Of a stretch of DNA of 64,000 bases, positions 16,532 to 26,661 are shown in pieces. The stretch's first letter is position 1; every line of letters starts with the position of its first letter. Source of the DNA: Cohnella herbarum (GTDB lineage Bacteria > Bacillota > Bacilli > Paenibacillales > Paenibacillaceae); the NCBI RefSeq assembly GCF_012849095.1, contig NZ_CP051680.1, positions 6,072,001 to 6,136,000 on the forward strand. Reading direction: 5' to 3'. Under the pieces are notes generated by a model. That model was not told the origin of the DNA. It did not search any database and saw only the letters and a list, made by a program, of their open reading frames with translations. A program made the position numbers and the translations under genes.

Positions 16532-17917
16532 TCAACCGTCTTGCGAAATTCCCCTCCTAAGATTCGCGCCCGGGTGACCGGCCGGAAGCAAGCGTTGGCC
16601 TTCTCCGAACAGCTTTTCACGGAAGGTTCCCGGCTCGTACTCGGTTTTGTACACCCCTCGTTTCTGAAGCTCGGGCACGACCAGATCGACGAAATCGATC
16701 AAGCTGCCAGGAGTAATCATATGCGTCAAGTTAAACCCGTCGACACCCGCCGCCTCGAAATAACTTTGAATGCCGTCCGCCACTTCTTGCGGATTACCGA
16801 CGATCGACATCTTGCGTCCGGGCCGTTCGAATCCGTTCAGCACCTCGCGAACGGTTAATTTCTTCGGATTGTCTTTCGTCAAGGATGCCGCTCTGGACTG
16901 TCCGTGTTCCGTGTGCTTGTATTCAAAAGAGGTGTCCAAATCGGAGTATTGGGAAAGATCGTATCCGGTAGATCCTCCGTATTGCGCCTTGGCCGCTTCC
17001 GAGCTCCACAGGCTCGCATACTCCTCGTACTTCGCCTCGGCCTCCTTGGTCGTTTCCGCTACGACAACGTTCAGGAACGTAAAAGCTTTAATGTGATCCG
17101 GATTGCGTCCGAAAGATTCCGCGCGGTTCTTAATATCCTGAATATATTGCTTGGTCTGTGCCGGTGTCGGTCCCCCGACGAATATGCATTCCGCATGACG
17201 AGCCGCGAAGTCGCTTCCGCGCGGGGAGCCTCCGGCTTGATAAATAACAGGAGTCCGCTGAAGCGAGGGCTCGCTGAGATGGGGGCCGGGAACCCGGTAA
17301 TACTTGCCTGCATGATTGATCTCATGAACCTTGGCCGGATCCGTGAACATGCGATTCTCCACATCGTGGACGATCGCATGATCTTCCCAGCTTGCCTCCC
17401 ATAGCTTATATACGACATCAAGAAATTCGTCCGCCATTTCGTAACGATCATCGTGCTTCATCATCTCCTGCAACCCGAAATTTCGAGCGGCGCTTGGCAG
17501 ATAGGACGTCACCACATTCCAGGCCAACCGCCCTTTTGTTAAATGATCCAGCGTACTCATTCTTCGGGCGTGTGCGTATGGATGCTCATAGGTTGTACTG
17601 ACGGTTAGGGCAAACGACAAGTGTTTCGTTGCCTGCGCCATGATGGGAATAGCGAAGGCCGGATCATTGAGCGGAACTTGCACGGCATCGCGGACGGCGG
17701 CATCTCTGCTCTGCCCGTAGATATCGTAAATCCCGACGACATCCGCCAAAAAAACAGCATCGAACTTGCCGCGCTCAAGCAGCTGAGCCAGCTCCGTCCA
17801 ATAGTCCAAATCTTTGTACCGGGATGTTCGAACATTGAGCGGGTGTTTCCATAGCCCATGCGAGTTGTGCATTGCGCTTGTCATGTCAAATGCGTTCATA
17901 CGGATTTGTTTACTCAT
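16532..17917 (-). CDS. NtaA/SnaA/DszA-type LLM flavin monooxygenase
   Basis: FMN-dependent luciferase-like monooxygenase (461 aa) of the NtaA/SnaA/DszA/YtnJ/YxeK group, which uses reduced FMN from a separate reductase to oxidise and cleave C-N or C-S bonds. The start ATG at 17917 follows AGGGG; a TTG 15 nt upstream would overlap that ribosome site. Family features include HGLWKHP, LTVSTTYEHPYAHARRMSTL, the GRLAWNVVTSY segment and QAGGSPRG. No flavin reductase gene is visible in the window. It is divergently transcribed from the MetNIQ-type importer and is followed by the M20 gene, a combination known from Bacillus organosulfur operons. I infer a role in releasing sulfur from a thioether or sulfonate-like substrate. 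Confidence 0.9.
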   Translation of the reverse strand: MSKQIRMNAFDMTSAMHNSHGLWKHPLNVRTSRYKDLDYWTELAQLLERGKFDAVFLADVVGIYDIYGQSRDAAVRDAVQVPLNDPAFAIPIMAQATKHLSFALTVSTTYEHPYAHARRMSTLDHLTKGRLAWNVVTSYLPSAARNFGLQEMMKHDDRYEMADEFLDVVYKLWEASWEDHAIVHDVENRMFTDPAKVHEINHAGKYYRVPGPHLSEPSLQRTPVIYQAGGSPRGSDFAARHAECIFVGGPTPAQTKQYIQDIKNRAESFGRNPDHIKAFTFLNVVVAETTKEAEAKYEEYASLWSSEAAKAQYGGSTGYDLSQYSDLDTSFEYKHTEHGQSRAASLTKDNPKKLTVREVLNGFERPGRKMSIVGNPQEVADGIQSYFEAAGVDGFNLTHMITPGSLIDFVDLVVPELQKRGVYKTEYEPGTFREKLFGEGQRLLPAGHPGANLRRGISQDG

Positions 17918-17948
17918 ATCGATTCCCCTCAATGTTGAAATTGACGAT

Positions 17949-18075: not shown

Positions 18076-18140
18076 CAGAACTGTATTCCACTTCCAAGTG
18101 GCTCTGTTTTTCGGAGCGGAGGAGGCCAGTTCTGTGGGCG
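18076..18140 (+). promoter_or_regulatory. Structured leader RNA (candidate riboswitch/attenuator) of the MetNIQ-type operon
   Basis: The 5' leader can form a closing stem of 8 perfect base pairs (CAGAACTG 18076-18083 with CAGTTCTG 18127-18134). This encloses two hairpins: CCACT/AGTGG (18088-18101) and CTCTG/CGGAG with a T5 loop (18102-18116). The strand GGAGGAGG (18118-18125), inside this domain, can also pair with CCTCTTCC (18144-18151), which is the left arm of the following terminator. The two pairings exclude each other, as expected of a transcription attenuator. No S-box, T-box or other riboswitch consensus known to me was found. The ligand would plausibly be a sulfur metabolite, but that is inference. 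Confidence 0.55.
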
Positions 18141-18182
18141 AAACCTCTTCCGAACGCGGGGGAGGTTTCTTTTATTTTTTAT
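18141..18182 (+). terminator. Leader (attenuator) terminator before the MetN-type gene
   Basis: An 11 bp stem (18141-18151 with 18158-18168, two G-T pairs), 6 nt loop, then a T-rich run (TCTTTTATTTTTT). It lies between the promoter at 18019 and the TTG start at 18260, with no gene before it, so it can only act within the leader. Confidence 0.8.
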
Positions 18183-18259
18183 ATCCGACTATTTGCATCT
18201 GTTTTATGAGTTTAATCTACGCATTCATTTGGTTGCATGCAGCAAAGGAGAGATCATCA

Positions 18260-19285
18260 TTGATCAAATTTGAATCCGTCGGCAAAACGTTCGGTTCCAA
18301 GAACAAACCTATCCGCGCTGTCGAAGATGTCTCCTTAACGGTTGCGAAAGGAGAAATCTACGGTGTAATCGGTTATAGCGGAGCCGGGAAAAGCACTCTT
18401 CTTCGGCTCGTGAATTTGTTGGAGCGGCCTACGGAAGGCAGAATTCTCGTTAACGATCGCGACGTTACCGAAATTTCATCCAAGGAGCTTCGTCATCTGC
18501 GCAGGCGAATCGGGATGATCTTTCAGACGTTTAATCTTTTTAACTCCCGAACCGTATTCGGCAATGTAGCTTATCCGTTAAAACTGGGGCGTTATCCAAA
18601 GCATCAGCTCAAGCAAAGAGTCGAAGAGCTGCTTCGATTTGTCGGATTGGAGGACAAAGCGGATCAATATCCGGAACAGTTGTCCGGAGGGCAAAAGCAG
18701 CGGGTTGGCATCGCGAGAGCGTTGGCGACATCGCCTGACATTCTGATCTGCGATGAGGCGACCTCATCCCTTGATCCGGAGACGACCCAAGAGATTCTCA
18801 AACTGCTTAAAAAAGTAAACGAGGAGTACAGCATTACCATTCTCTTAATCACTCACGAAATGCACGTCATTCGAAGCATATGCGATCGTGTCGCGGTTAT
18901 GGAGCAGGGGAGAGTCATCGAGGAGGGGAACGTATTCGATATATTCGCCCATCCGCAAAAACTAACGACCCGGAACTTCATCGGTTCCGTTCAGAACGAC
19001 AAGCTTTCCCCTAAGTTGCTGGAAACGTTAAGAAGAGACCACAAAGGACGATTGTTTCGAATCATTTTCAAAGACGACACGGCTAGCGAGCCGATCTTGT
19101 CGAAAGCTACGAGAAAACACGATGTCGATTTTAACATCGTTTATGGCAGCATCAATGAGCTGCAAGGCAAATTGTTCGGCAGCCTGATCGTAGAGTTTAT
19201 CGCGGAGAACGGCAAAATCGACGAAGTGATCAGCGAACTGGGAAGGACAGTCGAGCTCGGGGAGGTTATCGATCATGAAAGTTGA
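18260..19285 (+). CDS. metN: MetN-type ABC importer ATPase with NIL domain
   Basis: ATPase (341 aa) of a methionine-uptake-family importer. A TTG start at 18260 is chosen because AAAGGAGA lies 8 nt upstream; a longer frame from 18098 would read through the leader terminator. Walker A is GYSGAGKST (about residue 37), the signature is LSGGQKQRVGIARAL (about 140) and Walker B is ILICDEATSSLD. Residues about 250-335 form the C-terminal NIL domain, which in MetN binds methionine and inhibits transport. The permease gene overlaps its end by 11 nt. The neighbouring desulfurising monooxygenases suggest that the transported ligand is an organosulfur compound related to methionine, not necessarily methionine itself. 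Confidence 0.9.
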   Translation: MIKFESVGKTFGSKNKPIRAVEDVSLTVAKGEIYGVIGYSGAGKSTLLRLVNLLERPTEGRILVNDRDVTEISSKELRHLRRRIGMIFQTFNLFNSRTVFGNVAYPLKLGRYPKHQLKQRVEELLRFVGLEDKADQYPEQLSGGQKQRVGIARALATSPDILICDEATSSLDPETTQEILKLLKKVNEEYSITILLITHEMHVIRSICDRVAVMEQGRVIEEGNVFDIFAHPQKLTTRNFIGSVQNDKLSPKLLETLRRDHKGRLFRIIFKDDTASEPILSKATRKHDVDFNIVYGSINELQGKLFGSLIVEFIAENGKIDEVISELGRTVELGEVIDHES

Positions 19286-19937
19286 TTGGAATACATTCTG
19301 GCCGCGCGTAGTCGAGGCGACCGGCCAAACCATCACAATGGTGTCGATCACTCTTGTTATTTCGAGTTTGTTCGGTTTGCTCATCGGGCTTCTGCTGTTC
19401 GTTACGCGCAAAGGCAACATTTTGGAAAACCGATTTGTTTTTATGGTATTGAATTTGTTTATTAATATCATCCGTCCGATTCCATTCATTATTTTCCTGG
19501 TGACGATCAGTCCCGTAACGCGATTCGTAATCGGTACGACCATTGGAACATGGGCGGCTATCTTCCCGATGGCTATCGTGGCTTCATTCGTCATTGCCAG
19601 AGTGGTCGAGAATAACCTGGTTTCTATTGATCCGGGCATTATCGAAGCGGCCAAAGCGATGGGGGCCAATTCGTTCCAGATTATATTCGGCGTTCTTGTC
19701 CTTGAAGCGCTGGGACCCCTGATCCTTGGTTTAACGTTCATAACCGTTGCGCTTATTGATTTCTCGGCAATGGCAGGAACGGTTGGGGGAGGTGGTTTAG
19801 GCAACTTGTCGATGACATACGGCTATCAGCGCTTCGATGGCTCGGTTATGCTAGTCACCATCGTTATCCTTATTCTTCTTGTACAGATTGCTCAGTTCCT
19901 GGGAAACCGAATCTCGCGCAAGTTTTTACGCCGGTAA
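19275..19937 (+). CDS. metI: MetI-type ABC importer permease
   Basis: Five-span permease (220 aa) of the MetI family, partner of the ATPase with which it overlaps by 11 nt. The EAA loop reads EAAKAMGANSFQIIF at about residues 128-142, and the family's GGGGLGNLSMTYGYQRF segment is present at about 172-188. Its size matches MetI proteins. It forms a homodimeric channel for the ligand bound by the lipoprotein at 19991. Confidence 0.92.
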   Translation: MKVDWNTFWPRVVEATGQTITMVSITLVISSLFGLLIGLLLFVTRKGNILENRFVFMVLNLFINIIRPIPFIIFLVTISPVTRFVIGTTIGTWAAIFPMAIVASFVIARVVENNLVSIDPGIIEAAKAMGANSFQIIFGVLVLEALGPLILGLTFITVALIDFSAMAGTVGGGGLGNLSMTYGYQRFDGSVMLVTIVILILLVQIAQFLGNRISRKFLRR

Positions 19938-19990
19938 CCCGTGATCTTGTTTTCCAAACTAAAAAATATACGAAATGGAGCTGTATCTCA

Positions 19991-20968
19991 ATGAAAAAAC
20001 AAGCATGGCTTAGCTTAGTACTTGTCCTCGCATTCTTGGCGGTTACCGCTTGCGGCAACAAAAATTCCGGAAATAGCAATCCAGCCGCGGCACCGGAGAG
20101 CTCGGCGCCGGCATCCTCCGCCGCCGCGGAATCGCCTTCCCCGTCACCGTCTCCCGAACCCTCCAAAGAACCGATCAAAGTCAAGATCGGCGTAACCGGA
20201 TCGGACGGACCGCAATGGCCGTTGTTTAAGGAAAAAGCGAAAGCGGAACTGAATATCGATATCGAGTTGATCGAGTTTTCCGATTACACCTTGCCTAACT
20301 TGGCATTGGCGAATAAAGAAGTCGACATTAACTCGTTTCAGCATTTGGCTTTCTTGAGCCAATTTAACGTGGAGCATAAGCTGGACATCGTACCGATCGG
20401 CTCAACCGTTGTAGCGCCGCTCGGTCTGTATTCCCAAAAATACAAAGCGGTGACCGAGATTCCGGATGGCTCCGAGATCGCCGTTCCCGACGATCCGTCC
20501 AATCAAGGACGCGGGTTGCTCGTGCTTCAACAAGCAGGACTGATCAAGCTGAAGGATAACCCTGGTTTGTTCGCTACTCCCGACGACATTGTCGAGAACC
20601 CGCACAAAATCAAGATTGTTTCGGTCGTCGCCCAACAAACTCCTCGCGTACTGCCGGACGTTGCAGCTTCTATTATTAACGGGGGGATTGCGGGGCAGGC
20701 AGGACTGAAATTAGCGGATGCGATTTTCCATGATGATCCTGAAGCCGAATCGACAAGACCCTATATCAATGTCTTTGCCGTTCGTAAGGAAGACAAAGAT
20801 AACGCTAGTTACCTTGAACTTGCCAAACTCTATCAGCAGCCGGATATCGCGGAAGCCGTATTGAAGGATACGAACGGAGCTAGCTTCGTTACGAACATTC
20901 CGGTCGATCAGCTTCAACAAACGTTAGATCAATTGATCGAGAATATTAAAGCGTCGAATGCGAAGTAA
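19991..20968 (+). CDS. metQ: MetQ/NlpA-type substrate-binding lipoprotein
   Basis: Binding lipoprotein (325 aa) of the NLPA/MetQ family. The lipobox is VTAC (Cys at about residue 18), followed by a long Ser/Pro/Ala linker. MetQ-like blocks are visible, such as VDINSFQHLAFL and PDDPSNQGRGLLVLQQAGLI. Methionine binders share the Asn/Arg-containing DPSNQGR region, so the ligand is probably amino-acid-like. A bulged GACTCTCC/GGAGAGCAGTC hairpin lies in the 165 nt gap before the next gene and may reduce read-through. Confidence 0.92.
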   Translation: MKKQAWLSLVLVLAFLAVTACGNKNSGNSNPAAAPESSAPASSAAAESPSPSPSPEPSKEPIKVKIGVTGSDGPQWPLFKEKAKAELNIDIELIEFSDYTLPNLALANKEVDINSFQHLAFLSQFNVEHKLDIVPIGSTVVAPLGLYSQKYKAVTEIPDGSEIAVPDDPSNQGRGLLVLQQAGLIKLKDNPGLFATPDDIVENPHKIKIVSVVAQQTPRVLPDVAASIINGGIAGQAGLKLADAIFHDDPEAESTRPYINVFAVRKEDKDNASYLELAKLYQQPDIAEAVLKDTNGASFVTNIPVDQLQQTLDQLIENIKASNAK

Positions 20969-21133
20969 TTGAAACATCTGCAACTGGATTGAAGGCAATT
21001 ACGGAGCCATAATTCACGCCAATTCCGACTCTCCTGCGGCTGCTTACCGGTAATTCTGCCGGAGAGCAGTCGCTTAGAGTCTATTTATTTGAAGGCAAAC
21101 CGTCGAGTTGTGAAATCAGCAAGGAGGAGCAGA

Positions 21134-22366
21134 ATGGGACATACCAAAGGCGTATGGGGCAGCAGCCCTTCGGACAGCTACGAACGGCTTGCGGATCGAT
21201 TTAGGCACACTTTTCATCGAATCCGGGAAGGCTCCGTTCAGAGAGAGTTAAACCGTAAACTGCTTTACGAAGAAATCGGATGGTTGAAGGATATCGGCTT
21301 CGGAGCCGTACGGATTCCGAAGGAAAAAGGCGGGTTCGGCGCTACGCTTCCCGAATTCTTCAACCTGCTGATCGAATTGGCGGAGGCGGATTCAAACCTG
21401 CCGCAGGCGTTGCGAATTCATTTCGGCTTCGTTGAGAGAATCTTGGGTTTGCCGGACGGCGGGCAGCGGGATAGATGGCTAAAGCGGTTGGCGGACGGGG
21501 CTCTCATTGGCAACGCCCAGACGGAGACAGGAGAGTCGATAGTGGGCAGCTACGCCACAACATTATCCACGAGAGAGGAGCGCTTGAAGCTAACCGGAGT
21601 GAAGTATTATTCGACGGGTACGATTTATGCCGATTGGATCGTCGTGGGAGCGACTAACGAAGAAGACGAAATCGTGACGGCGATCGTACCGGCGACGGCG
21701 GAAGGAGTCGACATTGCGGACGATTGGGCAGGATTCGGCCAGACGCTTACGGGCAGCGGTACGACGACGTTTTCGGATACGCCGGTAGACAAGGACGAAG
21801 TGCTGAGCCGCGAATCGTATCCGAAATACGGGACGGCATTCGTCCAGATGGTTCATCTCGCGACATTGGCGGGTATTGCCAGAGCGGCCGCGAGGGATGT
21901 CTCGGCGGCGGTTGCGGAGCGCCGGAGAACGTTCTCGCATGCGTCAGCGGCCCGTTCTGCCGAAGATCCGCAAGTGCTTCAGGTCGTTGGGCGAGTGCAC
22001 AGCCAAGCGTATGCCGCGGGAGCGATTGTATTGAAGGCGGCAGAAGCCCTGCAGAGAGTATGCGACTTAGAAGAGACGGCCGGCGATACGGAGTATGAGG
22101 ATAAGGTGAAAGACGAGGCCGATGTCGAAGTATCGCAAGCGCAGACTGTCGTTACTGGACTAACGCTGGAGGCCGTTTCCTCCATCTTCGACGCGCTCGG
22201 CGCCTCGGCCACCGCCCGTTCGAAGGGAATGGATCGCTATTGGCGCAACGCCCGGACGATCGCTTCGCACAATCCTCTAATCTACAAAGAGAGAATCGTG
22301 GGCGATTACACGGTGAATGGAACTCGGCCGTCCATCGGCTGGCAGACCGGAATTGCAAATAAATAA
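21134..22366 (+). CDS. DszC/SfnC-type flavin monooxygenase (acyl-CoA dehydrogenase fold)
   Basis: Flavin-dependent monooxygenase of about 410 aa with the acyl-CoA dehydrogenase fold, from the group that includes DszC and SfnC and oxidises sulfur compounds with reduced flavin. The start at 21134 follows AAGGAGG; an upstream TTG at 21089 lacks a ribosome site. Typical segments are KYYSTGTIYADW (about residue 157), GFGQTLTGSGTTTF (about 198) and a C-terminal MDRYWRNARTIASHNP (about 365), where the last His matches the active-site region of DszC. It shares these blocks with the C-terminal half of the next gene, so the two are paralogues. A flavin reductase must be supplied from elsewhere. Confidence 0.88.
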   Translation: MGHTKGVWGSSPSDSYERLADRFRHTFHRIREGSVQRELNRKLLYEEIGWLKDIGFGAVRIPKEKGGFGATLPEFFNLLIELAEADSNLPQALRIHFGFVERILGLPDGGQRDRWLKRLADGALIGNAQTETGESIVGSYATTLSTREERLKLTGVKYYSTGTIYADWIVVGATNEEDEIVTAIVPATAEGVDIADDWAGFGQTLTGSGTTTFSDTPVDKDEVLSRESYPKYGTAFVQMVHLATLAGIARAAARDVSAAVAERRRTFSHASAARSAEDPQVLQVVGRVHSQAYAAGAIVLKAAEALQRVCDLEETAGDTEYEDKVKDEADVEVSQAQTVVTGLTLEAVSSIFDALGASATARSKGMDRYWRNARTIASHNPLIYKERIVGDYTVNGTRPSIGWQTGIANK

Positions 22367-22424: not shown

Positions 22425-24659
22425 ATGTCGGTTAAGATAGAAGCTCAGACCGTGACGGAACCGGAAGTTGCAGACGCGATCGGTCTTGCCTACAAGCTTG
22501 GGGAATTGCCGCTCGATCTTCGGCGGAGAGGCATCCCGGCGATTCGATATGCCGGTGCCGAAGGAAACGGCGGCTTGAAGTTTAGAACCAACACTGCGAC
22601 CGAATATACGCTTCAATTCGAAAGTCCAGTGCGGGCGCTGCGGCGTTTGTCCTCCGGGGAAGACATTCGCATCGTCGGAATTACGCTTCAGTATCGGCGC
22701 GAGGCGATTCTCGTGCGTTCGGAATCGCCTTTGAGGACTTTGGCAGACTTGAAGAATACGAAACTCGGGATCGCCTCTTGCGGCAACCCCGAGGATGCTA
22801 TTCGCATTCGCGAAGCGGAAAAGAATCTTGATGTCGCGCTCGCGAGAACCGGGATCTCGTCGGAAAGGCCGAATTGGATAGAACTCCATCGTGAGGGAGC
22901 GGACGGTTTGCATGCCGGGAGGCGGGAATTGCAAGCTCTGCTGCTCGGAAAGGTGGAAGCCGTCTACGAAGGCAGAGCCCTCGCTGCGAAGACTCGTCGG
23001 TTGCTCGGCGTTCGGGAACTGGAGGATTACATTTCCTATAAACCCGCCGTGGCAGTGCTGACTGCTTCCGCTGGCTTGATTGCAGAACATCCCGAATGGG
23101 TTGAACGCACTCTGGCCCATATCTCCCTCGCATCCGATTGGGCTTCCGAGAACCGCGACGAAGTGAACAGATTCGCGGCCAAACAACTCGGATTGCCCGA
23201 AGACGCCGTGGAGTCGGTCTTTTCGGAGTGCCTATATGAGCAATTCGGTACAACCGTCACGAACGACAAGTGGAGTCATCTCGTCCGCCTCAAGAGGGAG
23301 CTGCAAGAGATCGGTTTGCTGAAACCGGATTTCTCTCTGGACGATGCGCTGGATCAGGCAACAACTCAGAGGGCACAATCGCTCATAGACGGCGGGCAGA
23401 TCGAGATTCCCCAGAGCGAGCCAATCTCTCTATACGCGGAGAGCGATCTGGCGCGTTCGTTCTTTACGGATCGTCGACCGGCCCGGCTGCTTGCCGGGGA
23501 CGAGGATGCGCTCGAGGCGGCACGAACGTTCGCGGCGGAGATCCGGCCGGGCGCTTCGGACCGGGATCGTCGGCGTAAGTTGCCGCTCGGGGAAATGAAG
23601 CGACTCGCCGAGCTCGGACTGCTTGGACTCGTTGTGCCGAAGGCTTACGGCGGACCTGACGTGAGCACCCGCACGCTCGTGGAAATCTTCAAGCTGATCT
23701 CTCACGCCGACGGATCGATCGGGCAAATCCCGCAAAACCACCATTTCTTTTTAAAGTCGATCGAGCTCATCGGCAGCGAGGATCAGAAAAGCTTTTTCTT
23801 CGGCGAAGTGCTGAAGGGAGCTCAATTCGGCAACGCTTTGGCTGAGCGAAGCGGCGGCAAACGCGAGAAGCGAATATCGACCACGATTAGGAAATCGGAT
23901 GGCGAGGAAATCTACGAACTTTCCGGCAGTAAGTATTATTCGACCGGGGCGCTCTATTCCCATTGGATTCCCGTCACTGCGCTGGACGAAGAGGAGAAGC
24001 GGGTGACCGCATTCGTCCCGAGACATGCTCCGGGAGTGACGGTACTGGACGATTGGTCCGGCATCGGCCAGCGTACGACGGCTAGCGGCACCGTCGTGCT
24101 CCGGGAAGTGAAAGTGCCGGAACGTCATCGGTTCCAACATTGGAAAATCTTCGAGGGACCGCAATATTTCTCGGCATTCGGTCAAATCATGCATGCGGCG
24201 ATCGACGTCGGCATCGCAAGGGCCGCTTTGGAGGATGCTGCTTCGTTCGTTCGAGAGCACTCGCGTCCTTCTTTCGGCAGCGGAGCGGCCAGCGCGTCGG
24301 AGGAGCCGGATCTGATCCGCCGGTTCGGAGAGCTAGGCATTCGCCTGCAAGCGGCGGAAGCTTTGCTGGACCGGGCCGCGGATGCCATCGACGCAGCGCG
24401 GAAGGTTCTCAACCCGGAGACGGCAGGCCATGCCGCGTTGACGGTGGACTCGGCGAAATGGCTGGTTACGGAGACCGCGATCGAAATTACGAACGCCCTA
24501 TTCGAGGTCGCGGGCACATCCTCGATGGATCGCAAGCACAACTACGACCGTCATTGGCGCAACGTCCGCATCCATACGCTCCACGATCCGGCGCGTCTCA
24601 AACTTCATAACGTAGGCAAGTGGTTCCTCAATGGAATTTATCATGAATACAAAGTTTAG
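22425..24659 (+). CDS. Fusion of a DszB-like domain to a DszC/SfnC-type monooxygenase
   Basis: A 744 aa protein starting at an ATG with AAAGGAGG 7 nt upstream. Residues about 1-320 resemble DszB (SsuA/NMT1-like fold): VGITLQYRREAILVRSESP at about 85-103 parallels the LGITPLLGRQGFFVRDDSP block of DszB, and the EHPEWVERTL to LLKPDFSLDDALD region matches its C-terminal helices. Residues about 345-744 are a full DszC/SfnC-like domain (SKYYSTGALYSHW, GIGQRTTASGT, RHWRNVRIHTLHDP). No stop or internal ribosome site lies in the linker (about 23320-23450), so it is a real fusion. The DszB catalytic Cys27, His60 and Arg70-x-Gly-Gly have no counterparts in my by-eye alignment, so the front domain may bind or channel substrate and not cleave sulfinate. 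That comparison uses a DszB sequence recalled from memory. Confidence 0.82.
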   Translation: MSVKIEAQTVTEPEVADAIGLAYKLGELPLDLRRRGIPAIRYAGAEGNGGLKFRTNTATEYTLQFESPVRALRRLSSGEDIRIVGITLQYRREAILVRSESPLRTLADLKNTKLGIASCGNPEDAIRIREAEKNLDVALARTGISSERPNWIELHREGADGLHAGRRELQALLLGKVEAVYEGRALAAKTRRLLGVRELEDYISYKPAVAVLTASAGLIAEHPEWVERTLAHISLASDWASENRDEVNRFAAKQLGLPEDAVESVFSECLYEQFGTTVTNDKWSHLVRLKRELQEIGLLKPDFSLDDALDQATTQRAQSLIDGGQIEIPQSEPISLYAESDLARSFFTDRRPARLLAGDEDALEAARTFAAEIRPGASDRDRRRKLPLGEMKRLAELGLLGLVVPKAYGGPDVSTRTLVEIFKLISHADGSIGQIPQNHHFFLKSIELIGSEDQKSFFFGEVLKGAQFGNALAERSGGKREKRISTTIRKSDGEEIYELSGSKYYSTGALYSHWIPVTALDEEEKRVTAFVPRHAPGVTVLDDWSGIGQRTTASGTVVLREVKVPERHRFQHWKIFEGPQYFSAFGQIMHAAIDVGIARAALEDAASFVREHSRPSFGSGAASASEEPDLIRRFGELGIRLQAAEALLDRAADAIDAARKVLNPETAGHAALTVDSAKWLVTETAIEITNALFEVAGTSSMDRKHNYDRHWRNVRIHTLHDPARLKLHNVGKWFLNGIYHEYKV

Positions 24660-24765: not shown

Positions 24766-26661
24766 ATGGATTGGGAAGCCCACATCGAACGGTGGAGCCG
24801 AACCGCCGTTCGATTGCTGGATATTCGACAGTATCGCGTGGAGAACGGAACTTTACCTGATCGCTATTTGGCGCATACGAGCTTTTTCGTAGTTACGACC
24901 CAGGGAGAGGCGAAGGTGAGTCTGTCGGGGAAGGACTATCAAACCCGTTCCCTCCACATTCTACACGGAGGAAAGGGTGCGGAGCTAGGCTTTATGCCGC
25001 TGGGAAACGACTTTGCCTGCTATTTGATTCTGTATAACGCAGAATGCGCCTTGCCGGAGGATCGGGAGAGCTTCCGTATGTCTTATGAATTTATTCCTTA
25101 TGCGGTTTTGCCTCTGAAGGAACAGTGTCAAGCGATGGATCGCCTGTGGCAGCAATCAACTCCATTGGACAAGTTGCAGGCGCAGTCCGCCTTTCTTCCG
25201 TTCGTACATGAAGTCATGCGACAAATCCGCACATCGGCAACGGAAAGCGGCAAACATAATTTGGTAACCGAAGCGATTCACTATATTCATGAGAATTACA
25301 GGAAGCCGATTACGGCCGAGGAATTGGCCGGGATTTACGGCTGCAGCGCGAGCTACTTGTCTCGCTTGTTCAAAAGCCATTTAGGACTAGGTCCGATTGA
25401 ATACTTGATTCATGTACGCGTTCATAAATCGAAGCAGTTCCTGCTGAGATCGGAGGCTCGTGTCCAGGAAATAGCGAGCAGCGTTGGCTACTCGGATGTC
25501 TATTATTTCAGTCGCTTGTTCAAGAAGCATACCGGTTGCTCTCCGCTTCAATTCCGGGAGGACAATAGGCAGACTGTTCAGCATAATCCATCACGTCCGT
25601 TAAAATCGTCCATTGTATCTCAAAAGCATGTTCTCCATAATGATAATGATAATTATTATCATTTGATTAGAGAAGGGGATACATCGATGTTCAGATTTTC
25701 AAGACCGGCGTTCGGAGCAATGATGCTATTATGCACAACTTTGCTTCTGAATGCATGTCAGTCGAACGGCAATACAGGGACGCCTGCCTCCCAACCTGCT
25801 TCAGTAGAAGCCGCTACGGACAGCACGGCTGGAGAAACGCGGATTTACGAGCATTTGAAAGGCCAAACGGAAATTCCCGTGAAGCCTCGGCGCGTGGTCA
25901 GCCTCTTCCATCTGGGCGAACTGATAGCGCTTGGAGTAAAGCCGGTAGGCTCGACTACCTTCATTCTGAAAAATCCGCTCCTAAGCGATACTTCCGATAT
26001 TGCGGATGTCGGAGTTCCGCCTAACGCGGAAAAGATTATGTCGCTGGAGCCTGATCTGATTGTAACAACGGCACCGTTTGCAGAGGCATTCGAGGGCGGG
26101 TACGAAGCATTGAGCAAAATCGCGCCAACGATTGTAGTGGAGCAGTACAACGATCCGATTAAGGATGTTGAAATGTTCGGCGATATTCTCGGTAAGCAAG
26201 AGGAAGCGCGGAAATGGAATGAGACATTCGCGACAAAAATAGCGGAATACAAGGAGAAGATTAGCCCGTTCATTGGTGCCGATGAAACCTTCTCGATTTT
26301 GAACGTGCGTCCCGGTGCGTATTATATTTACGGCGATACCAATATGGGAGGCAACATTCTCTACAAGTATCTAGGTTTGAAGCCGACGGATAAAGTAGAG
26401 ACTGACGTCATTAAGGGAGAAACATGGGAAATATCCGCCGAGGTAATCCCCGATTTCATAGGCGATCGGTTATTTCTGGCCGTGAATGAAGGGGCAGAGA
26501 AAGAATTGAAGGAAGCGGAGAAGCTTATTCAAAATTCGCCGGCAGGGAAGACCGGAAGGATCTACAATATCGATTTCAATCAATTTCTTCCCAGCGATCC
26601 GATTTCAGTAGAACAACAGTTGGATATCATCGTCAGTTTAATGGTTGATAGCAATAAATAA
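24766..26661 (+). CDS. AraC-type regulator reading in frame into a siderophore-binding lipoprotein
   Basis: A single open frame of 631 codons. Residues 1-165 are an AraC-type sensor region. Residues about 170-270 carry two HTH motifs (TAEELAGIYGCSASYLSRLF and VQEIASSVGYSDVYYFSRLF) ending in GCSPLQF, where AraC proteins normally end within a few residues. The frame then runs through a promoter and a Fur box (translated as HNDNDNYYHL) into a complete lipoprotein signal and a periplasmic-binding domain. A lipoprotein signal inside a DNA-binding protein makes little sense, so I think two genes are present. One added base at the G pairs 25556-25561 would create a TAG at 25566-25568 and end the regulator as expected. 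The regulator probably activates the iron-uptake gene after it when its siderophore is present. Confidence 0.75.
   Translation: MDWEAHIERWSRTAVRLLDIRQYRVENGTLPDRYLAHTSFFVVTTQGEAKVSLSGKDYQTRSLHILHGGKGAELGFMPLGNDFACYLILYNAECALPEDRESFRMSYEFIPYAVLPLKEQCQAMDRLWQQSTPLDKLQAQSAFLPFVHEVMRQIRTSATESGKHNLVTEAIHYIHENYRKPITAEELAGIYGCSASYLSRLFKSHLGLGPIEYLIHVRVHKSKQFLLRSEARVQEIASSVGYSDVYYFSRLFKKHTGCSPLQFREDNRQTVQHNPSRPLKSSIVSQKHVLHNDNDNYYHLIREGDTSMFRFSRPAFGAMMLLCTTLLLNACQSNGNTGTPASQPASVEAATDSTAGETRIYEHLKGQTEIPVKPRRVVSLFHLGELIALGVKPVGSTTFILKNPLLSDTSDIADVGVPPNAEKIMSLEPDLIVTTAPFAEAFEGGYEALSKIAPTIVVEQYNDPIKDVEMFGDILGKQEEARKWNETFATKIAEYKEKISPFIGADETFSILNVRPGAYYIYGDTNMGGNILYKYLGLKPTDKVETDVIKGETWEISAEVIPDFIGDRLFLAVNEGAEKELKEAEKLIQNSPAGKTGRIYNIDFNQFLPSDPISVEQQLDIIVSLMVDSNK
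25613..25641 (+). promoter_or_regulatory. Internal promoter for the siderophore-binding lipoprotein
   Basis: TTGTAT (25613-25618), 17 nt spacer, CATAAT (25636-25641). Its -10 abuts a Fur box, so transcription would be blocked by Fur-Fe. It supports an independent gene starting at 25687. Confidence 0.55.
25642..25660 (+). promoter_or_regulatory. Fur box
   Basis: The 19 bp site matches the classical Fur consensus GATAATGATAATCATTATC at 18 of 19 positions and is flanked by further symmetric AT pairs. It overlaps the -10/+1 region of the internal promoter and precedes the lipoprotein start by 27 nt. Confidence 0.9.
25687..26661 (+). CDS. Iron-siderophore-binding lipoprotein (internal start in the AraC frame)
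   Basis: Ferric-siderophore-binding protein of the FhuD/FepB class (324 aa from this ATG). AGAAGGGGAT lies 8 nt before the ATG. The signal peptide ends in LNAC (Cys at about residue 23), followed by a Ser/Thr/Ala linker. The binding domain contains RRVVSLFHLGELIALGVKPVG and later GGNILYKYLGLKP, both typical of the class. The Fur box and promoter just upstream indicate iron-repressed expression. No permease or ATPase gene is next to it, so it may deliver to the FecCD pair at 44.3 kb or to one outside the window. Confidence 0.85.
   Translation: MFRFSRPAFGAMMLLCTTLLLNACQSNGNTGTPASQPASVEAATDSTAGETRIYEHLKGQTEIPVKPRRVVSLFHLGELIALGVKPVGSTTFILKNPLLSDTSDIADVGVPPNAEKIMSLEPDLIVTTAPFAEAFEGGYEALSKIAPTIVVEQYNDPIKDVEMFGDILGKQEEARKWNETFATKIAEYKEKISPFIGADETFSILNVRPGAYYIYGDTNMGGNILYKYLGLKPTDKVETDVIKGETWEISAEVIPDFIGDRLFLAVNEGAEKELKEAEKLIQNSPAGKTGRIYNIDFNQFLPSDPISVEQQLDIIVSLMVDSNK

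Follow-up and report, generated by a model that had tools for sequence, protein, structure and literature searches.

According to PMC13352529, monooxygenases of the acyl-CoA-dehydrogenase fold oxidize DMS to DMSO and on to dimethyl sulfone, MsuE supplying the reduced FMN; methanesulfinate is the product of SfnG and the substrate of MsuC, which turns it into methanesulfonate, and SsuD releases sulfite. The same text reports no significant growth defect upon loss of MsuC and indicates that sulfinate oxidation can continue without it, so an oxygenase dedicated to sulfinates is in some cases dispensable. In DszC, His391 helps protonate oxygen at the flavin (PMC11134501). In the desulfinase DszB, His60 and Arg70 are described as holding the sulfinate and Cys27 as reacting with it, and Gly73 is named among the active-site residues (PMC12168087). 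It has been suggested (PMC11852219) that other bacteria using DBT turn it into a sulfonate and process this further with Ssu enzymes, bypassing DszB. One engineered bifunctional enzyme, DszA-DszB (PMC11550978), joins a Dsz desulfinase to a Dsz-type flavin monooxygenase, as does the protein described here; the engineered enzyme, however, is man-made, has DszA as the partner, and showed raised activity, whereas ours is natural, has an SfnB partner, and has lost the desulfinase residues.

The window, a 64,000-nucleotide stretch of Cohnella herbarum DNA, carries on its plus strand a 744-aa gene (22425..24659) whose product consists of a DszB-like pseudo-desulfinase domain followed by an SfnB-family monooxygenase domain. 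The longest frame opens at 22317, within the preceding gene, but we preferred 22425 as the start: it closely follows a ribosome-binding-like aaggagg, and most relatives of the fusion use the corresponding position. Run on the whole protein, Pfam recognized acyl-CoA-dehydrogenase-like domains; run on the N-terminal piece, it recognized NMT1 at a score barely above its cut-off (21.4 versus 20.5). When the two pieces were searched against PDB sequences, the N-terminal piece matched DszB best (E = 8.5e-8) and the C-terminal piece DszC (2.3e-55), with the methanesulfinate monooxygenase MsuC lower down (1.3e-46). The linker between them (about residues 324 to 352; 23394..23480, plus strand) is free of stops, and there is no in-frame start codon between residues 300 and 375. 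The preliminary description of this DNA had proposed a natural fusion in a single chain, which a stop or a new start in the linker would have undone; the uninterrupted frame and the same join in 17 other loci confirm it. That dszB-like and dszC-like genes elsewhere are separate, overlapping, or nearly adjacent might suggest a sequencing or assembly artefact merging two genes. The probability of this is negligible, however: the join recurs in 17 other named records and in 11 database proteins of 734 to 745 aa, two of which nearly duplicate the proteins of L001 and L007, and we dropped the explanation on the strength of those 17 loci.

The 11 proteins were recovered by searching residues 1 to 340 against 5.8 billion proteins (about 8000 candidates were scored in each protein search; 7993 here). 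All have acyl-CoA-dehydrogenase domains, the organisms given for them are Cohnella and Paenibacillus, and several are named “SfnB family sulfur acquisition oxidoreductase.” Scanning genome contigs yielded the 17 fusion loci (L001 to L017) and two distant matches to the C-domain part only. Full-length matches occurred in 6 of 37 genomes of the genus sample, the window's included. In the family sample, the N-domain lay in a fusion-length frame in 10 of 344 genomes, and a strong unfused relative was present in 5 of 344. With at most four candidates scored per genome in the order and phylum searches, a close C-domain (E ≤ 1e-60) was found in 14 of 392 genomes of the order, each time in an open frame of at least 740 aa, and the sole close C-domain among 398 genomes of the phylum was the window's own. 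A search for the architecture, which the preliminary description had advised for Bacillales, found it repeatedly in genus, family, and order, among soil bacteria of a Cohnella/Paenibacillus group. Among viral contigs there were two pattern matches, neither of which was confirmed.

Phylogenetic trees place the 18 fusion N-domains together, and likewise the 18 fusion C-domains, each set being split from all other rows by a well-supported branch; the N-domain tree held 14 unfused rows, and the C-domain tree held only 8 others, of which several sit on very long branches. Since each half forms a single fusion clade within the few other rows used, one fusion event suffices. Genes of the two types also occur side by side, a DszB-like gene followed by an acyl-CoA-dehydrogenase-like gene, in Sinorhizobium and, with a 4-base overlap, in Allorhizobium and Mycobacterium; such gene order offers an easy route to fusion. 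The rhizobial pairs are not themselves the parent of the fusion, because the neighbors of their DszB-like genes are just 25 to 27% identical to the fusion C-domain. On a Sinorhizobium meliloti plasmid (L038, 7965-11295), two DszB-like genes with intact motif flank an acyl-CoA-dehydrogenase-like gene, and an NtaA/DmoA-family monooxygenase gene lies downstream of this trio. Five genomes of one genus of the same family as Cohnella (L076 to L080) carry an unfused DszB-like gene, also with intact motif, directly followed by a 299-aa gene, weakly binding-protein-like, and by a gene for a distant NtaA relative; an ABC ATPase gene adjoins.

Residues 353 to 738 (23481..24638, plus strand) make up an FMN monooxygenase domain of acyl-CoA-dehydrogenase fold, which scores above the curated cut-off of the NCBIfam SfnB model TIGR04022 (501.2 bits versus 430.9). 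The DszC model NF043015 gave 211.5 bits against a cut-off of 850, and DszC proper was rejected as the identity of this domain. Of the earlier label “DszC/SfnC-like,” then, the DszC/SfnB-like fold stands, but the family by curated cut-off is SfnB, not DszC. The best Foldseek match was DszC (3x0y; E = 1.5e-23): the C-domain has its fold in common with DszC, TdsC, and MsuC, although it is about 30 to 32% identical in structure alignment. Rhizobial plasmids carry standalone SfnB proteins about 49 to 51% identical to the domain; those of two plasmids (49 to 50%) are annotated as 405 aa, without the 340-residue stretch that precedes the domain in the fusion. Counted on the sequence alignment, H720 falls in the column of DszC His391, and both H717 and H720 are present in 27 of 27 non-redundant fusions (29 minus 2 near-copies). 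Given the chemistry of its fold relatives and the constancy of H720, the C-domain probably has S-oxygenase activity, with SsuE as its supplier of reduced flavin.

The N-domain (about residues 11 to 323; 22455..23393, plus strand) has the two-lobed fold of DszB. DszB was its best match in fold comparison as well as by sequence, and an hhalign profile comparison of 18 fusion N-domains with six unfused DszB-like proteins gave a probability of 100 (E = 8.6e-43). The SsuA model TIGR01728 scored 55.3 bits against a cut-off of 163.5, and we rejected a transport or sulfonate-binding protein of SsuA type on this basis. A crude hydropathy scan flagged 2 of 27 fusion N termini (L015 and L017), both at the conserved first helix; the window's protein was not flagged. 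The N-domain resembles DszB in fold, approximate length, and position ahead of a DszC-like partner.

Where it differs from DszB, besides being joined to a monooxygenase, is in the catalytic residues. In the hhalign columns, the nucleophile Cys27 corresponds to Pro13 (codon 22461..22463, plus strand), His60 falls in a gap, and the RxGG motif aligns with Q64-F65-E66-S67 (QFES; 22614..22625, plus strand), the last also in the joint alignment. Across the 27 fusions the joint alignment has Cys in 0, His in 0, Arg in 13, the first Gly in 2, and the second Gly in 1, so that none has the Cys, the His, or an RxGG in the aligned columns, and no Cys anywhere in the N-domain is invariant. Both the DszB-like domain and its missing Cys27, His60, and RxGG, which the preliminary description had noted by eye, were thus borne out. 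By comparison, all five residues were present in 128 of 128 unfused relatives, although this conservation is partly selected and the set leans toward intact members, because 120 of them are the listed matches, of 1839, to a motif-bearing profile (the other 8 were chosen). A fairer control is provided by the six unfused relatives found via the fusion's own profile (P0013 and L056 to L060), in all of which the motif is intact. In L017 the RxGG columns read QWGG, with an unaligned RIGG nine residues upstream, and in L013, L014, and L017 a Cys sits one place off the column of the lost nucleophile; these oddities resemble stages of motif decay. The 120 listed relatives (P0013 to P0132), with their full Cys/His/RxGG set, are, where named, mostly called “ABC transporter substrate-binding protein,” and the hydropathy scan flagged an export-signal-like N terminus in none of them; many may be misnamed desulfinase-like enzymes.

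Mean pairwise identity among 18 sequences was 38% for the N-domain, with a minimum of 25%, and 73% for the C-domain. In nine pairs, dN/dS was 0.23 to 0.40 for the N-domain and 0.04 to 0.12 for the C-domain, a roughly 3- to 6-fold difference that would fit a looser structural role, too. None of the 17 other fusion loci has a stop in the matched range (18 of 18 genes with the window's). These comparisons indicate that both halves are under purifying selection. Six N-domain residues (E27, D31, R197, H232, R249, and E259) are invariant in all 27 fusions and mostly different in unfused relatives: the E27 column, which with D31 lies in the ELPLD stretch at codons 27 to 31 (22503..22517, plus strand; joint alignment), has W in 120 of the 128 unfused relatives (120 listed of 1839 plus 8 chosen), and the H232 column has Q in 114 of these 128. 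The six could equally form a new active site.

Gene content around the fusion is that of a sulfur-assimilation neighborhood. Directly upstream is a second DszC/SfnB-like monooxygenase gene, SfnB2 (21089..22366, plus strand; 270 bits, under the SfnB cut-off), preceded by genes for a MetN-MetI-MetQ-like ABC importer (18098..20968, plus strand) and, on the minus strand, by an NtaA/DmoA-family FMN monooxygenase gene (16532..17932; TIGR03860, 542.7 bits versus a cut-off of 279.7). Because all three importer proteins miss the curated MetN, MetI, and MetQ cut-offs, the importer may carry a sulfur compound other than methionine, and these genes possibly encode an organosulfur importer. Within about 8 kb on each side of the fusion, all 17 loci have an NtaA-family monooxygenase and MetN-, MetI-, and MetQ-like genes (counted at E < 1e-25 for MetN-like and 1e-8 for MetI/MetQ-like); SfnB2, 68 to 88% identical to the window's, was near the fusion in 10, HpaB-like and aldo/keto reductase genes in 13 each, SsuD in 9, and MetY in 3. 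Family models placed SsuD (L005) and homocysteine synthase (L013) above their cut-offs and the HpaB-like protein below its own. Neither the window between 13000 and 28000 (E up to 0.5) nor L001 to L016, where tRNAs alone reached the gathering score, yielded a riboswitch, and control by a riboswitch was dropped for lack of a candidate in either set. Downstream of the fusion, one 631-aa frame (24766-26661, plus strand) encodes an AraC-type regulator and then a siderophore-binding-like lipoprotein; the latter has a possible start of its own at M308 (nt 25687), after the ribosome-binding-like sequence AGAAGGGG, so the single open frame perhaps gives two proteins.

SsuD was not found in the stretch of the window searched around the fusion, and the genome has three SsuD genes elsewhere and one SsuE above cut-off. 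Over the 19 fusion genomes, SsuD was above cut-off in 18 (it was not found in G028) and SsuE in 19. Within the family sample, SsuD occurred in 68 of 197 genomes, namely, in 8 of 8 with the fusion versus 60 of 189 others (Fisher p = 1.5e-4, uncorrected for kinship); the presence of SsuE says little, given how widespread it is (146 of 197). Of the 19 fusion genomes, 1 (G761) had a strong standalone match to the DszB-like profile (325 bits, motif intact). Other standalone matches in these genomes reached at most 43.5 bits, and the two in the window's genome were weak, at 38 and 34 bits. The sulfur context presumed in the preliminary description is borne out by the neighboring genes, but its suggestion that the enzyme could be self-contained in scavenging sulfur is not: in the window the fusion has two further flavin monooxygenase genes and an ABC transporter as neighbors, enzymes of this fold depend on a separate flavin reductase (SsuE is above cut-off in all 19 fusion genomes), and the desulfinase half has none of the known catalytic residues.

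Since the N-domain has lost its catalytic residues yet is conserved, its probable role is to bind or sense a sulfur compound, not to cut one. The reading we favor, to which we lend somewhat more belief than doubt, takes the protein to be a two-component FMN monooxygenase of the SfnB type whose DszB-derived N-domain binds a ligand and thereby acts in substrate presentation or as a switch. The C-domain, with reduced FMN supplied by SsuE, would oxygenate the sulfur of an organosulfur compound, be it a sulfide, sulfoxide, or sulfinate. The two-lobed cleft of the N-domain would bind a ligand that belongs to the same pathway and resembles a sulfinate or sulfonate, either presenting it to the C-domain or switching C-domain activity, and the C-S bond would then be cut by NtaA/DszA-like and SsuD monooxygenases in place of a desulfinase. 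With SsuD as its last step, a pathway can dispense with a desulfinase, in keeping with the N-domain's loss of catalysis, and we favor ligand binding because DszB minus its chemistry leaves a cleft made for sulfinate. Judging by entry titles, a binding-protein fold likewise serves as a regulatory domain in a cyanobacterial bicarbonate transporter (PDB 9uak/9uai). Counting against this reading are the occurrence in G761 of an intact standalone DszB-like protein beside the fusion, the faster evolution of the N-domain, the six invariant residues (which would suit a new active site equally well), and the dispensability of MsuC noted above. Of the roles that the preliminary description had left open for the N-domain (binding the substrate, channeling it, or different chemistry), the evidence favors a noncatalytic one.

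Two other roles for the N-domain compete with ligand binding. It might be a scaffold, binding no small molecule, that keeps together the subunits of the monooxygenase or tethers the flavin reductase or a neighboring monooxygenase; faster evolution with a few charged invariant positions fits an interface, and genes of partner flavoenzymes are in the same loci. We consider this unlikely, albeit a live alternative, given that the whole two-lobed binding-protein fold, with DszB as its best match, has been kept, which exceeds the needs of an interface. Alternatively, the N-domain could still be an enzyme with a rebuilt active site (E27, D31, R197, H232, etc.), making the chain bifunctional. The invariant acidic, Arg, and His residues, at positions where unfused relatives mostly differ, would then be catalytic, the order of desulfinase and monooxygenase matches that of dszB-dszC pairs, and 18 of 19 fusion genomes lack a strong standalone DszB-like match. 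This, too, is a live alternative, but one to which we give less weight than to a scaffold: nucleophile Cys and His are absent from all 27 fusions, no N-domain Cys is invariant, the N-domain evolves faster than the C-domain, and SsuD provides another route of C-S cleavage.

That the N-domain is a decaying passenger left from the gene fusion is very unlikely. The QWGG of L017 and the displaced Cys of L013, L014, and L017 do look like decay, but N-domain dN/dS is 0.23 to 0.40, all 18 genes are free of stops, and invariant residues persist despite N-domain identities as low as 25%. As for history, we propose, more tentatively than the ligand-binding role itself, a single fusion, in the Cohnella/Paenibacillus lineage, of a pathway desulfinase to a flavin monooxygenase; having lost catalysis, the desulfinase would now gate its partner from within the chain, either sensing sulfinate/sulfonate or presenting substrate.

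Each half of the fusion belongs to a known family; what is new is that the two are combined, that the combination has become fixed in one bacterial group, and that every sampled fusion has lost the catalytic residues. A literature search, in which subscription journals were thinly covered, found no description of a DszB-like/SfnB fusion, and a search pairing SfnB with Paenibacillus found no paper. If the N-domain binds a pathway intermediate, the protein would exemplify natural substrate delivery or feedback inside a two-component flavin monooxygenase, and would offer biodesulfurization a natural template in which a DszB-type domain is joined to a DszC-type one. With 1839 unfused-length relatives matched and the desulfinase motif in all 120 of those listed, it would also be a clean case of an enzyme becoming a noncatalytic domain. 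A sensing or substrate-presenting N-domain, if that is its true role, would make this a pseudoenzyme-enzyme chimera of a kind not yet described for sulfur scavenging.
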